The translations under genes and the position numbers were made by a program. Shown here piece by piece: positions 51,368 to 55,708 of a DNA stretch of 64,000 nt. The notes beneath the pieces were generated by a model. It worked only from the letters and a program-made list of their open reading frames with translations. It did not search any database and was not told where the DNA came from. Numbering within the stretch: the first letter of the stretch is position 1; each line of letters opens with the position of its first letter. This DNA comes from Psychroserpens mesophilus (GTDB lineage Bacteria > Bacteroidota > Bacteroidia > Flavobacteriales > Flavobacteriaceae): positions 248,001 to 312,000 of the forward strand of contig NZ_JXJP01000002.1 of assembly GCF_000826645.1 (NCBI RefSeq), in the 5' to 3' direction.

Positions 51368-52894
51368 ATGGCTATCATCGGAAATATCATCAAAGGCGTC
51401 ATTGGTTTAAAGGATGCTCTAACAGCAGCACCGAATCATTTTGAAAATCAACAAAACGTTTTAAAACACCTCTTAGAAACTGCTAAAAACACCCAATTTG
51501 GGAAGTATTATTCATTTGACCAATTACTCACTTCAGATGATGTATCCAAAGCTTTTTCTGAAATGGTACCTTATTTCGATTATGATAAAATTAATTCACA
51601 GTGGTGGAGCAAATTGCATGAAGGTGAAACTGATGTGACCTGGCCTGGTAATCCAACTTATTTTGCTTTAAGTTCAGGTACTACAGGAAAAACGAGCAAA
51701 CGAATTCCTGTAACCGATGATATGATTGAAGCCATTCGTCAGTCTGGAATTAAGCAAGTATTTGCGCTGAAAAATTTCGATTTACCTGCCGATTTTTTTG
51801 AAAAAGAAATTATGATGTTAGGAAGTTCAACAGATTTAGACGAACGAAATAATCATTTAGAAGGTGAAATTAGTGGTATTAGTGCTAGTAATATTCCCTC
51901 ATGGTTTCGAGGGTATTACAAGCCTGGTGAAGACATTGCAAAAATTGATGATTGGGACGAACGTGTGCGTCATATTGCCAAACGAGCCAAAGATTGGGAT
52001 ATTGGAGCACTAAGTGGTATTCCATCCTGGATTGAACTCATGCTTCAGGAAGTTATAACCTATCATAATTTAAACCACATTCATGACATCTGGCCTAATT
52101 TACAAGTATATACTTCTGGAGGTGTTGCATTCGGTCCTTATGAGAAAAGCTTTCATGCTTTAATGGGAAAACCAGTAACAGTTATTGATACGTATTTGGC
52201 TTCAGAAGGCTATATCGCCACGCAAATACGTCCTGAAACTGATGCTATGCAACTTAATACAGACAACGGAATTTACTTTGAGTTTGTTCCGTTTAAACCT
52301 GAATACATTAATCAAGATGGCTCTTTAACAGATGATGCACCATCAATAGGTTTATCAGAAGTTGAAACAAATCAAGATTATGTGCTAATTATAAGTACTG
52401 TAAGTGGCGCATGGCGTTACCTTATAGGAGATACCATTGAGTTTACTGATGTCGAACGTGCTGAAATCAAAATCACTGGTCGTACGAAGTTCTTTCTGAA
52501 TACGGTTGGTTCTCAATTGTCTGTCAATAAAATGGATGCTGCAATGAAAGTATTAGAAAAGAAATTCGATACGACAATTCCAGAATATACCATTTGCGCA
52601 CAACGAGGAGAAGATGGTGAATTTTACCACTATTGGTATCTAGGTTCCGAACTCGTTGATATTGATGAACAGACCATTTCAAATGCCCTCGACGAAGCTT
52701 TAAAAGAGGCTAATAATAATTATAAGGTAGCACGAAGCAAAGCTTTAAAAGGCGTCAAAGTGAAACTGATTTCAACTGAAAAATTTTACGACTGGAATGC
52801 TCAGAACAAAAAGAAAGGTGGTCAGGTTAAGATGGAACGCGTGATGAGTGAGGAGAAGTTTGCCGATTGGGAAACTTTTGTCAATGGTAGTTAG
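51368..52894 (+). CDS. GH3-type auxin-responsive promoter family protein
   Basis: 508 residues. The ATP-binding loop YFALSSGTTGKTSKRIPVT, LYKARSGG-like YTSGGVAFGPY, and DTYLASEGYIATQ with YRLIGDTIEFT-type region match the plant GH3 acyl-adenylase family. In plants these join amino acids to jasmonate or auxin; bacterial members have no proven substrate. The gene is 42 bases after the copper-binding protein but with no logical tie. Its stop overlaps the stop of the next gene on the other strand. Confidence 0.9.
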   Translation: MAIIGNIIKGVIGLKDALTAAPNHFENQQNVLKHLLETAKNTQFGKYYSFDQLLTSDDVSKAFSEMVPYFDYDKINSQWWSKLHEGETDVTWPGNPTYFALSSGTTGKTSKRIPVTDDMIEAIRQSGIKQVFALKNFDLPADFFEKEIMMLGSSTDLDERNNHLEGEISGISASNIPSWFRGYYKPGEDIAKIDDWDERVRHIAKRAKDWDIGALSGIPSWIELMLQEVITYHNLNHIHDIWPNLQVYTSGGVAFGPYEKSFHALMGKPVTVIDTYLASEGYIATQIRPETDAMQLNTDNGIYFEFVPFKPEYINQDGSLTDDAPSIGLSEVETNQDYVLIISTVSGAWRYLIGDTIEFTDVERAEIKITGRTKFFLNTVGSQLSVNKMDAAMKVLEKKFDTTIPEYTICAQRGEDGEFYHYWYLGSELVDIDEQTISNALDEALKEANNNYKVARSKALKGVKVKLISTEKFYDWNAQNKKKGGQVKMERVMSEEKFADWETFVNGS

Positions 52895-53514
52895 TCTGAT
52901 GACTTATTGTTCCTGTCCTCTACTAATTCCATTATTTCTTCAGGAGACAGGTAATATTTTTTGATTCGGTCTTTATAGGATTGGGTGATGTTAGCGTGAT
53001 TTAAAATGAAATTTTTTGTTTTCAATATATACGATTCCATACCATGAGCTACTGCAAAGCTATCGGCAGTTCGTTCGGCTTCAACTATATAAGATTCAGA
53101 AAATATATAATTGAATCCAAATCTAATAAGATTCAGGTTACTTCTTGTTTGGTAATCAGTGATGTGTCCAAGTTCATGACCAATCCAGCCAATAAAAATA
53201 TCGTCTGGTATATCTCTGGTTGAAAATTCTTTATCTGCAATTTTAAAGGTTTCACTAATCAGTATTACATAAGATCTGTTTTTTCGACTTCTGAAGAAAC
53301 TGGCAAACTTGGGCTGTGCTTGCATGGTAGATTTCTTAATATTTTTTTTGAACTTAAATTCGATGGCTGTATTCTTTAATTGTGGATAGAACGATAAAGC
53401 CATTTCAACATGGTCTTTTATTGATGCAGGAATTTTATGATGAGAATTTATAGGCATATATCGAACAATTAGAATGATTACAATTACTACTATTAAGAAT
53501 TTTAAATACTTCAT
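52891..53514 (-). CDS. Membrane-anchored HELGH protein (putative metalloprotease)
   Basis: 207 residues. An N-terminal membrane helix (about 3-20) is followed by a soluble domain with the zincin motif HELGH at residues 113-117 and further conserved-looking SYIVEAERTADSFAV, which could supply the third ligand (Glu) as in M48/gluzincin-type enzymes. I start at MKYLKF: the frame could be extended six codons, but only with a TTG start. No named family is certain. Confidence 0.8.
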   Translation of the reverse strand: MKYLKFLIVVIVIILIVRYMPINSHHKIPASIKDHVEMALSFYPQLKNTAIEFKFKKNIKKSTMQAQPKFASFFRSRKNRSYVILISETFKIADKEFSTRDIPDDIFIGWIGHELGHITDYQTRSNLNLIRFGFNYIFSESYIVEAERTADSFAVAHGMESYILKTKNFILNHANITQSYKDRIKKYYLSPEEIMELVEDRNNKSSD

Positions 53515-53671
53515 AGGGTTACAAAATAGCAATTGTAGTGGTTACTGATTGAATGAATTCATCAAATTATTGCTTCATTTGAAAATTACCCATGATTCAA
53601 ACATATGTTATAAAATTATTAGTATTGTTTGAATTATTTTACGATATTTATCCGCTCAATTAATCCTACTT

Positions 53672-54934
53672 ATGTCCTTCGAACGTACTCAAGAAAAACT
53701 TAAAATTTTAGCTGATGCTGCCAAATATGATGTGTCTTGTTCATCAAGTGGAAGTAATCGAAAAAATAGTAATAAAGGTCTTGGTGATGCCTCAGGAATG
53801 GGTATTTGTCATTCATACACCGAAGATGGACGATGTGTATCCTTATTAAAAATTCTACTTACCAATTACTGCATATTCGATTGTGCCTATTGTGTGACTC
53901 GTAAGAGTAATGATATCAAAAGAGCGGCTTTTAAGGTTCAGGAAGTGGTTGATTTGACCATAAATTTTTATCGAAGAAATTATATTGAAGGCTTGTTTCT
54001 AAGTTCTGGTATTTTTAAAAGTGCCGATTATACGATGGAAAGGCTAGTTGCTGTAGCAAAAAAGTTGCGTTTAGAGGAAAATTTTAATGGTTATATTCAT
54101 TTAAAATCTATTCCTGGAGCTTCAGATGAACTCATGAGAGAAGCCGGTTTATATGCGGATCGCTTAAGTGTTAATATTGAAATCCCTACAGAATCAGGTT
54201 TGAAACGACTGGCTCCAGATAAAAATCGTGAAGATTTTATTAAACCAATGGTAAAAGTTAAAAATGAAATTATTCAATATAAAGCGGAAAAGAAAGTTAT
54301 AAAAAGCACTCCTAAATATGCACCTGCAGGACAAAGCACACAGATGATTATTGGTGCAAGTGGTGAAAATGATTTCCAGATTATGCAGACTTCAAATCAT
54401 TTTTATAAGCAGTTTAATTTAAAGCGAGTGTATTACTCAGGATATGTGCCAATTAGTTATGATGAACGCTTACCACAAATAGGAAGCGCTGTACCAATGC
54501 TTCGTGAAAATCGTTTGTATCAAACTGATTGGTTGATGCGTTTTTATGGGTTTGATGTGAGTGAAATTTTAAATCAGCAACATCAAAACCTTGATCTAGA
54601 TATCGATCCAAAATTGAGTTGGGCACTACGAAACTTACATGAGTTTCCTGTGGATGTTAATACTGCAGATAAACGTATGCTGGCCAGAATTCCTGGTTTA
54701 GGAATGCGGTCGGTTCATAAAATCTTAAATGCCAGACGGTTCAGAAGACTCAATTGGGAGCATCTCAAAAAGATAGGTTTGGCGTTGAATAGAGCGCAAT
54801 ATTTTATCGTTTGTGATAGTCATATTTTTGAGCGTCGCGATTTATCTTCAGAAAAAATTAAAGGCCTAATTTTGCAAAATTCAACCAGCAAATATCAAAA
54901 GACCTTAAGTAACCAATTAAGTCTTTTTGCCTAA
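53672..54934 (+). CDS. Putative DNA modification/repair radical SAM protein
   Basis: 420 residues. The iron-sulfur cluster motif C67-x3-C71-x2-C74 (NYCIFDCAYCVTRK) is intact; the barrel continues with FLSSGIFKSADYTMERL and HLKSIPGASDELM. A helix-hairpin-helix DNA-binding stretch is at the C terminus (RMLARIPGLGMRSVHKIL). The family (TIGR03916) is almost always next to the TIGR03915 gene, as here with no base between them. The chemical reaction is unproven; a role in DNA repair or modification is inferred from the pairing and the helix-hairpin-helix. Confidence 0.93.
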   Translation: MSFERTQEKLKILADAAKYDVSCSSSGSNRKNSNKGLGDASGMGICHSYTEDGRCVSLLKILLTNYCIFDCAYCVTRKSNDIKRAAFKVQEVVDLTINFYRRNYIEGLFLSSGIFKSADYTMERLVAVAKKLRLEENFNGYIHLKSIPGASDELMREAGLYADRLSVNIEIPTESGLKRLAPDKNREDFIKPMVKVKNEIIQYKAEKKVIKSTPKYAPAGQSTQMIIGASGENDFQIMQTSNHFYKQFNLKRVYYSGYVPISYDERLPQIGSAVPMLRENRLYQTDWLMRFYGFDVSEILNQQHQNLDLDIDPKLSWALRNLHEFPVDVNTADKRMLARIPGLGMRSVHKILNARRFRRLNWEHLKKIGLALNRAQYFIVCDSHIFERRDLSSEKIKGLILQNSTSKYQKTLSNQLSLFA

Positions 54935-55708
54935 ATGAAACACAAAAATTTACGTTACGATGGTACTTTTGATGGATTTTTAACTGCAGTTTTTACTGTA
55001 TTTGAACAGAAACTTACTCAGGTAGACCTTCAAAAGGAATCAGACTTACAAGGTGGTTTGTTTTCTGAAATTGAAATTATTATTACAGACGAATCTAAAG
55101 CCAATCGTGTTTGGAAAGGAATAAAATCTAAATTATCTCCTCAAGGAAGTTACCAATTGTATTATGCGTTTTTAAGTGAACAAGATGGCGTAGAAGCTCT
55201 ATTGTTGGATTATATTACATATGCCTTCGCTTCAGATGAAAATGTCGATAAAGATTATTCACATCCTTCCATTTTAAAGATTGCACAAATAGCAAAAATG
55301 GTTGGTCGTGAAAAGCATCGTATGGAAGCCTTTGTACGTTTTAAATTGACTAAAGATGATGTATACTTTGCTAATATAGAACCAGACTTTAATGTTTTAC
55401 CTCTCATTTCAAAACATTTCAAAAATCGTTATGCAGATCAAAAGTGGATGATTTATGATATCAAACGACAATACGGTTTGTACTATGATTTGCAGACTGT
55501 ATCGCTTATGCAAATGTATTTGCCAAAGGATTTCAACTTTACTAAAACAGATGAAAATTATTTTGCTGCGGAAGATTTGGACTTTCAAACCCTTTGGCAG
55601 GACTATTTTAAAAGTACCAATATAGCATCTCGCAAAAACATGAAATTACATGTAAGACATGTACCAAAACGCTATTGGAAATACTTAAGTGAAAAGCAAC
55701 CTAATTAA
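54935..55708 (+). CDS. TIGR03915 family putative DNA-repair protein
   Basis: 257 residues, DUF4130. Start RYDGTFDGFLTAVFTVFE, the central VGREKHRMEAFVRFKLTKDD and the closing NMKLHVRHVPKRYWKYLSEK mark the family. It starts on the base after the radical SAM stop, so the two are surely co-expressed. The protein has similarity in layout to uracil-DNA-glycosylase-associated proteins, but the function is not shown. Confidence 0.92.
   Translation: MKHKNLRYDGTFDGFLTAVFTVFEQKLTQVDLQKESDLQGGLFSEIEIIITDESKANRVWKGIKSKLSPQGSYQLYYAFLSEQDGVEALLLDYITYAFASDENVDKDYSHPSILKIAQIAKMVGREKHRMEAFVRFKLTKDDVYFANIEPDFNVLPLISKHFKNRYADQKWMIYDIKRQYGLYYDLQTVSLMQMYLPKDFNFTKTDENYFAAEDLDFQTLWQDYFKSTNIASRKNMKLHVRHVPKRYWKYLSEKQPN

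Follow-up and report, generated by a model that had tools for sequence, protein, structure and literature searches.

A radical-SAM/DUF4130 gene pair of Psychroserpens mesophilus and its relatives as a probable DNA-damage repair module with a predicted clamp-binding tail

We analyzed two abutting genes in a 64,000-nt stretch of the genome of Psychroserpens mesophilus (Bacteroidota; contig NZ_JXJP01000002.1, positions 248,001 to 312,000; hereafter the window). They encode a radical S-adenosylmethionine (SAM) protein and a DUF4130 protein, which we propose probably act together as a two-protein DNA-damage repair module, with a clamp-tethered radical-SAM catalyst and DUF4130 as its partner. The window pair is a typical representative of a kind that is known, curated and apparently uncharacterized: it has the order, strand and abutment of the TIGR03916/TIGR03915 pair of NCBIfam, and we found no difference from it. 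New here are the clamp-binding tail predicted for the radical-SAM protein, its six invariant cysteines, the DHH-like fold predicted for DUF4130 and the lineage-matched LexA boxes in relatives.

The TAA of the radical-SAM open reading frame (ORF) directly abuts the ATG of the DUF4130 ORF. The upstream protein scores 677.5 bits against TIGR03916 (cut-off 343.5) and 39.2 bits against Pfam Radical_SAM (cut-off 29.5), and the downstream protein 289.1 bits against TIGR03915 (cut-off 112.25) and 178.5 bits against Pfam DUF4130 (cut-off 27). A preliminary description of this DNA had named the same two ORFs, their zero spacing and their families, all of which hold given the exact coordinates (Table 1) and family scores far above cut-off. 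The window's genome has one copy of each gene.

To describe the pairing, we used a survey of 247 genomes of the phylum Bacteroidota, which is uneven in that 48 of the 82 genomes with DUF4130 come from one family; pairing statistics refer to this phylum, and other phyla are represented by records of a plasmid collection. DUF4130 is found in 82/247 genomes and the radical-SAM gene likewise in 82 (80 above cut-off, one split and one truncated), with both genes in 80 genomes and either in 84. DUF4130 lies downstream of the radical-SAM gene on the same contig and strand in 78 of the 80, the matched parts being at most 300 bases apart in 74 of these; in the other two (G178 and G233) the genes are on separate contigs, both intact in G178. 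In a second set, comprising the best 80 of 564 relatives in a species collection, all Bacteroidota, the radical-SAM gene is directly upstream on the same strand at 79 loci. Caulobacter vibrioides, included as a control genome, has both families as well.

The preliminary description held that the two proteins are always paired, which is close to what we observe but too strong, given four exceptions among the 84 genomes and a further locus (L084) considered below. Both genomes with only the radical-SAM gene (G024 and G121) have it at a contig end. Both genomes with only DUF4130 carry a decayed copy, which retains 22 of 32 conserved residues in G033 and 12 in G134, whereas the 80 paired DUF4130 rows, window included, retain at least 31. 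The G134 locus (L181, 3980-5693) has kept the S24 repressor gene along with the decayed DUF4130 and lost the radical-SAM gene, a snapshot of module loss.

The radical-SAM protein of the window ends in QLSLF. The consensus for binding the bacterial sliding clamp is given as QL[S/D]LF or QxxLF in the available part of PMC12309361, and such motifs are often C-terminal according to the accessible text of PMC4549789. We compared 103 radical-SAM sequences, of which 97 belong to Bacteroidota (most of them to Flavobacteriia) and 6 to three further phyla. All but one have a broad form of the motif within their last 50 residues (102/103), compared to 1/794 of the remaining proteins encoded at these loci; the exception (L188) has a split frame and lacks the tail. 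The strict form QL[SDAK]LF occurs in the last 12 residues of 53/103 radical-SAM proteins and 0/794 neighbors. By column, Q is conserved in 99, L in 97, position 3 in 46, L in 99 and F in 97 per cent of sequences, while the eight flanking columns range from 21 to 60 per cent.

The tail also recurs outside this alignment. In nine further loci, belonging to Alphaproteobacteria and one Clostridium, the protein closes with QL[SET]L[FL] or QLSIF (three with a final Leu, one with Ile-Phe), and 12 further Bacteroidota sequences all end in QL[STN]LF. Two sequences left out of the alignment, L190 and L193, have the cysteines described below and the tail QLTLF or QLSLF. MutS proteins encoded at the same loci carry QLSFF near their end in 7/7 cases, a plausible positive control. 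Based on this conservation, we predict that the radical-SAM tail binds the DnaN sliding clamp.

The radical-SAM protein is by far the better conserved member of the pair, with 72-93% identity to the window protein in 70 relatives compared to 51-76% in 72 for DUF4130. The intact iron-sulfur motif reported in the preliminary description is CxxxCxxC at C67/C71/C74, with Ser at position 71 in one sequence (L075). Three further cysteines, C23, C46 and C55, precede it; their only gap is L080, whose N-terminal part is cut by the contig start. In a set of 12 sequences spanning Bacteroidota, Pseudomonadota, Bacillota and Fusobacteriota, the invariant cysteines are these six and no others, with none after C74; C381 is Cys in 95/103. 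The three invariant cysteines ahead of CxxxCxxC suggest that C23/C46/C55 probably hold a second iron-sulfur cluster.

The helix-hairpin-helix that the preliminary description assigned to this protein is better evidenced by structure than by Pfam, where HHH_3 reaches 24.1 bits, below its cut-off of 27. ComEA aligns with residues 324-382 of the structure model at Z 7.0 and a root-mean-square deviation (rmsd) of 1.6 over 59 residues, and the ComEA-related structure 2duy is matched in a profile search at E 0.00082. We used only this part of the radical-SAM model and predict that it binds DNA.

The AlphaFold2 model of DUF4130 has a mean confidence (pLDDT) of 82.5. A Foldseek search of the PDB places DHH/DHHA1-type phosphoesterases on top (best E 5.7e-4, TMq 0.41); VIA returns PAP phosphatase (Z 8.9, rmsd 4.9, 191 aligned residues), followed by RecJ and Cdc45; and many of the best-ranked named matches in the viral database BFVD are DHH proteins. 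It is this agreement of three structure searches on one family, rather than the size of Z alone, that argues for a DHH-like fold. The likeness to RecJ, other DHH/DHHA1 phosphoesterases and Cdc45 lies in the predicted fold of residues 1-214, whereas a conserved DHH motif is lacking: it appears in 0/73 Bacteroidota sequences of one alignment (A2) and 1/13 of another (A5), at residue 145. Sequence searches of the PDB with DUF4130 gave nothing of note. We thus predict for DUF4130 a reduced DHH/RecJ-like fold, or one that resembles it, and take it to be probably non-nucleolytic; without the motif, a DNA- or lesion-handling subunit is more likely than a nuclease. Residues 229-235 and 238-257 have pLDDT below 50 yet are highly conserved, and this tail may bind a partner.

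We turn to regulation, taking COG4277 to be the family of the TIGR03916 radical-SAM protein. For a COG1573-COG4277 operon, SOS (LexA) control has been predicted in Bacteroidetes and is cited for Verrucomicrobia and Alphaproteobacteria, and a GGA-N5-TCC operator was gel-shifted by a Bacteroidetes LexA (PMC8565304, available part). The preliminary description missed this prediction for what is presumably the same operon. As in that operon, we find two genes, GGA-N5-TCC boxes and an S24 LexA: among the 80 loci, a helix-turn-helix S24 repressor is encoded near the pair in 39, divergent and adjacent in 34, and 39/39 repressors keep the Ala-Gly cleavage site, Ser and Lys of the self-cleaving type. 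Up to four GGA-N5-TCC palindromes lie between the repressor and radical-SAM genes. At 41 of 78 Bacteroidota loci the operator is within 300 bases of the radical-SAM gene, namely 34/38 with a repressor nearby (0.9 in shuffled sequences) and 7/40 without one (0.8 in shuffled sequences).

Searched in 23 genomes, the strict operator TTGGAWTATWTCCA gave 67 sites, compared to 14 for a reversed control. Roughly half of the sites (33) are at loci of the pair, counting one (L091) outside the 23 genomes. We fetched 30 loci with TTGGAWTATWTCCA, of which 16 lack the radical-SAM gene, and scanned the flanks of six of these. There the operator stands before genes for Y-family polymerases (L123, L126), Pol III alpha (L120, L142) and a GIY-YIG exonuclease (L121), all members of the SOS regulon in the available part of PMC8565304; one other site (L129) is beside a mannosyltransferase-like gene. 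The recurrent sites before polymerase and exonuclease genes rule out a purely local repressor, and those linked to polymerases strengthen the SOS part of the proposal, which is already in print.

Other lineages have boxes of their own. All ten alphaproteobacterial loci have GAAC-N7-GAAC (0.08 of 11 in shuffled sequences), nine of the boxes being at most 40 bases from the start used (three starts are estimated). CTGT-N8-ACAG stands at the single betaproteobacterial locus, and two copies of GAAC-N4-GTTC at one of the two clostridial loci; both are LexA consensus forms.

Within the window's genus, 11/23 genomes have the radical-SAM gene, and neither Bacteroidota LexA motif is found within 220 bases of it in the window or the ten other loci. 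Upstream of the window pair is a candidate operator, the palindrome AACATATGTT, whose core ACATATGT is present in 9/11 same-genus loci, window included, and resembles Gram-positive LexA boxes. With a flanking A/T, AACATATGTT occurs at only five sites in the window's genome. We do not claim a regulon for it, as the four other sites in this genome and four in the genus are beside genes that look unrelated from their translations by eye. S24 relatives encoded elsewhere in the window's genome share 28 and 32% identity with the repressor.

The partner differs between phyla. In Bacteroidota, the uracil-DNA glycosylase (UDG) domain PF03167 is absent from the window partner and from 73/73 partners scanned, and full DUF4130 ORFs (80/80) are 250-295 aa long with at most 7 residues outside the family match. 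The uracil-DNA glycosylase named for the SOS operon in the available part of PMC8565304 is therefore a label that does not fit these proteins. In Proteobacteria, DUF4130 is fused to UdgX, an enzyme that crosslinks to abasic DNA through its R-loop histidine (PMC10359453, available part), at 8/9 annotated loci. All eight fusions keep GEQPG, six the strict R-loop (KRRVH and KQRLH in the other two) and five the strict motif B. As in the window, the DUF4130 half of these alpha- and betaproteobacterial proteins exceeds the TIGR03915 cut-off (two scanned) and the upstream radical-SAM protein has a QLxL tail; unlike the window partner, they carry a UDG domain, their DUF4130 parts share 19-21% identity with it and they do not conserve the N-terminal YDGxxxG.

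The ninth locus, from Acinetobacter (L118, 4995-7057), is unfused and Bacteroidota-like, its radical-SAM and DUF4130 proteins being 64.7% and 47.2% identical to those of the window, and looks like a horizontal transfer. Together with the Bacteroidota partners, it shows UdgX to be an optional module.

We suggest that the radical-SAM protein would be the catalyst, with a [4Fe-4S] cluster on C67/C71/C74 that, judging from the motif, would cleave SAM to the 5′-deoxyadenosyl radical, the standard chemistry of the superfamily. C23/C46/C55 would probably carry the second cluster, the helix-hairpin-helix would hold DNA and the QLSLF tail on DnaN would recruit the protein to replication forks and repair patches. 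DUF4130 would be a dedicated, near-obligate helper that handles DNA or the lesion and probably contacts the radical-SAM protein through its conserved tail. The LexA boxes of many relatives suggest that the operon is made after DNA damage there. For the chemistry, we infer that the pair would most likely use a radical to remove or reverse a base lesion that blocks replication, and UdgX on the partner suggests that in Proteobacteria the lesions are of the uracil-derived or abasic class. The clamp motif, extra cysteine triad, predicted DHH-like partner fold and proteobacterial UdgX fusion were all missing from the preliminary description.

Several observations weigh against this proposal. Within 300 bases of the radical-SAM gene, 37/78 Bacteroidota loci lack GGA-N5-TCC; of seven other loci searched for four box types, only two gave a match, with none of these boxes in Fusobacterium, the other Clostridium, Bacteroides, Spirosoma or Acinetobacter; and L182 has none of six box types tried. 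The window promoter itself has neither GGA-N5-TCC nor CTAA-N5-TTAG in 400 bp, so the link to damage rests on relatives. Related rows run throughout our data, so that counts are not independent, and presence in only 11 of the 23 same-genus genomes means that the module is dispensable. L084, outside the 247-genome survey, has an intact DUF4130 (32/32) and no radical-SAM gene seen within 12.7 kb. The DHH-like fold comes from a predicted model, its Z of 8.9 is close to what searches of this kind give as background, and a profile-profile comparison of DUF4130 with RecJ, NrnA and AlaRS, made with shallow templates, found no similarity. The radical-SAM model has a mean pLDDT of 61 and is poor outside residues ~280-400. 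Finally, the open-access literature searched yielded no experiment, biochemical or genetic, on either protein, and none of its papers that bring together radical SAM, the sliding clamp and DNA repair concerns this protein by title; the preliminary description's statement that no lesion or modification is established agrees with this.

The pair's surroundings, as scanned, are ordinary chromosome, with an OYE-family reductase nearby and ribosomal-protein genes further upstream; two further genes are listed in Table 1, the second being an immediate neighbor of the pair in 9 loci. DNA-repair genes are found near the pair among the 80 loci (UvrA 15, MutS 7, AlkD-like 5), possibly because of shared synteny. 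The AlkD/HEAT-like DNA_alkylation gene is just downstream of DUF4130 on the same strand in L063, L072, L076, L078 and L100 (by Pfam in one), and its product has QLKLW near the N-terminus. On a Phaeobacter plasmid (L116, 1-8681), the neighborhood of the pair includes a topoisomerase IB and a damage-response ATP-dependent DNA ligase with its exonuclease.

Table 1. Features of the gene pair and its upstream neighbors, in window coordinates
Feature	Position	Strand	Basis
Radical-SAM protein, TIGR03916 (rSAM_link_UDG), 420 aa	53672..54934	+	ORF call, curated hidden Markov model (HMM), Pfam
DUF4130 protein, TIGR03915, 257 aa, no UDG domain	54935..55708	+	ORF call, curated HMM, Pfam, predicted fold
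QLSLF, codons Q415-F419, predicted DnaN sliding-clamp-binding motif in C-terminal tail	54914..54928	+	motif consensus (PMC12309361), conservation
CxxxCxxC of SAM-binding [4Fe-4S] cluster, codons C67-C74	53870..53893	+	C67 and C74 in 102/103, C71 in 101/103
N-terminal invariant cysteines C23, C46, C55, possible second Fe-S cluster	53738..53836	+	each in 102/103
Helix-hairpin-helix, residues ~324-382, predicted DNA binding	54641..54817	+	HHH_3, ComEA structural and profile matches
Conserved DUF4130 tail HxPxRYWKxLxEK, codons 229-254, possible partner-binding segment	55619..55696	+	pLDDT mostly <50 in isolated model
Candidate operator, palindrome AACATATGTT	53600..53609	.	upstream in 8/11 same-genus loci, window included
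GH3-family protein	51368..52894		OlsH (lyso-ornithine lipid synthetase) 278 bits, below cut-off 620; near pair in 11/80 loci
Small divergent HELGH metallopeptidase, M48-like	52891..53532		weak match; near pair in 11/80 loci

Among other explanations, the one in print is direct reversal of a thymine photoproduct by an enzyme like SplB, the spore photoproduct lyase (SPL), possibly together with a thymine-modifying enzyme. The available part of PMC3765255 describes the associated radical-SAM proteins as SplB-like photolyases and DUF4130 as a predicted mutagenesis-related enzyme. Radical SAM and a presumed DNA substrate are what the window protein shares with SplB, and we found no sequence match between them: a profile search to E 10 lists HydG, HydE and ThiH and no SPL structure (an SPL entry in that library is unconfirmed), and at E ≤ 0.001 the window protein matches, besides TIGR03916, the NCBIfam models for ThiH and for a B12-binding ladder enzyme. 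The VIA list for the poor radical-SAM model, which also lacks SPL, carries no evidential weight. SPL has a conserved hydrogen-donor Cys after the cluster, whereas our proteins have no invariant one after residue 74 and three extra ones at the N-terminus; to our knowledge, SplB lacks this triad, the helix-hairpin-helix and the clamp tail. The pair is also present where there is little sunlight, in the gut species Bacteroides finegoldii and Parabacteroides distasonis and in Pusillibacter faecalis from a human sample. The cysteine triad and the lack of a detected SPL match disfavor a simple photolyase label, and we regard this explanation as improbable, if the best placed of the alternatives.

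The UdgX fusions raise a second possibility, in which UdgX captures uracil-DNA or abasic sites covalently and the radical-SAM protein and DUF4130 resolve the complexes. How such complexes are resolved is an open question in the available text of PMC10359453, and the fusion prevails at the annotated proteobacterial loci. The Acinetobacter partner has no UdgX, however, the Bacteroidota partners scanned have no UDG domain and neither of the two UDGs in the window's genome has UdgX motifs. We give this explanation little credence.

Constitutive modification of DNA bases, rather than repair, seems to us just as doubtful. It would accord with the NCBIfam name, "putative DNA modification/repair", and with a second cluster that may precede the SAM cluster, an arrangement reminiscent of methylthiotransferases and lipoyl synthase. 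However, PADLOC gave no match, no restriction gene is among the eight window neighbors scanned, and the LexA-type boxes of several lineages, the patchy presence within the genus and the UdgX fusion favor repair; the predicted SOS control argues for damage repair over a constitutive function. We also rejected anti-phage defense, since PADLOC matched neither protein and viral contigs held no DUF4130 relative. The radical-SAM protein has matches in ten phage-collection records (eight unannotated fecal "Bacteriophage sp." pieces and two 240-kb "Acinetobacter phage" records), for which we do not claim a phage origin. Action on RNA or protein near the replisome can be largely set aside: the substrate is unproven and clamp binding would only place the radical-SAM protein, yet the helix-hairpin-helix, UdgX fusion and SOS boxes speak for DNA.

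We therefore return to the repair module as the preferred explanation. A more ambitious version of it would be a new SOS-linked direct-repair pathway in at least four phyla, in which a two-cluster, clamp-tethered radical-SAM enzyme and a DHH-fold pseudo-nuclease remove or reverse a base lesion that blocks replication and is beyond all known repair enzymes, with UdgX recognizing or holding the site in most of the Proteobacteria seen; we put this forward tentatively and think it rather unlikely to hold in full.

For the phylum Bacteroidota, partners without a glycosylase domain qualify the label "UDG base excision repair". For UdgX, whose purpose is an open question, the fusion gives an entry point. 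If confirmed, the clamp tail would place the site of action at DnaN, on DNA that has just been replicated or repaired, and it offers a five-residue mutation as a functional test. A widespread, SOS-linked pair that has had curated names and a substrate still to be found now has specific, testable clues to its function.

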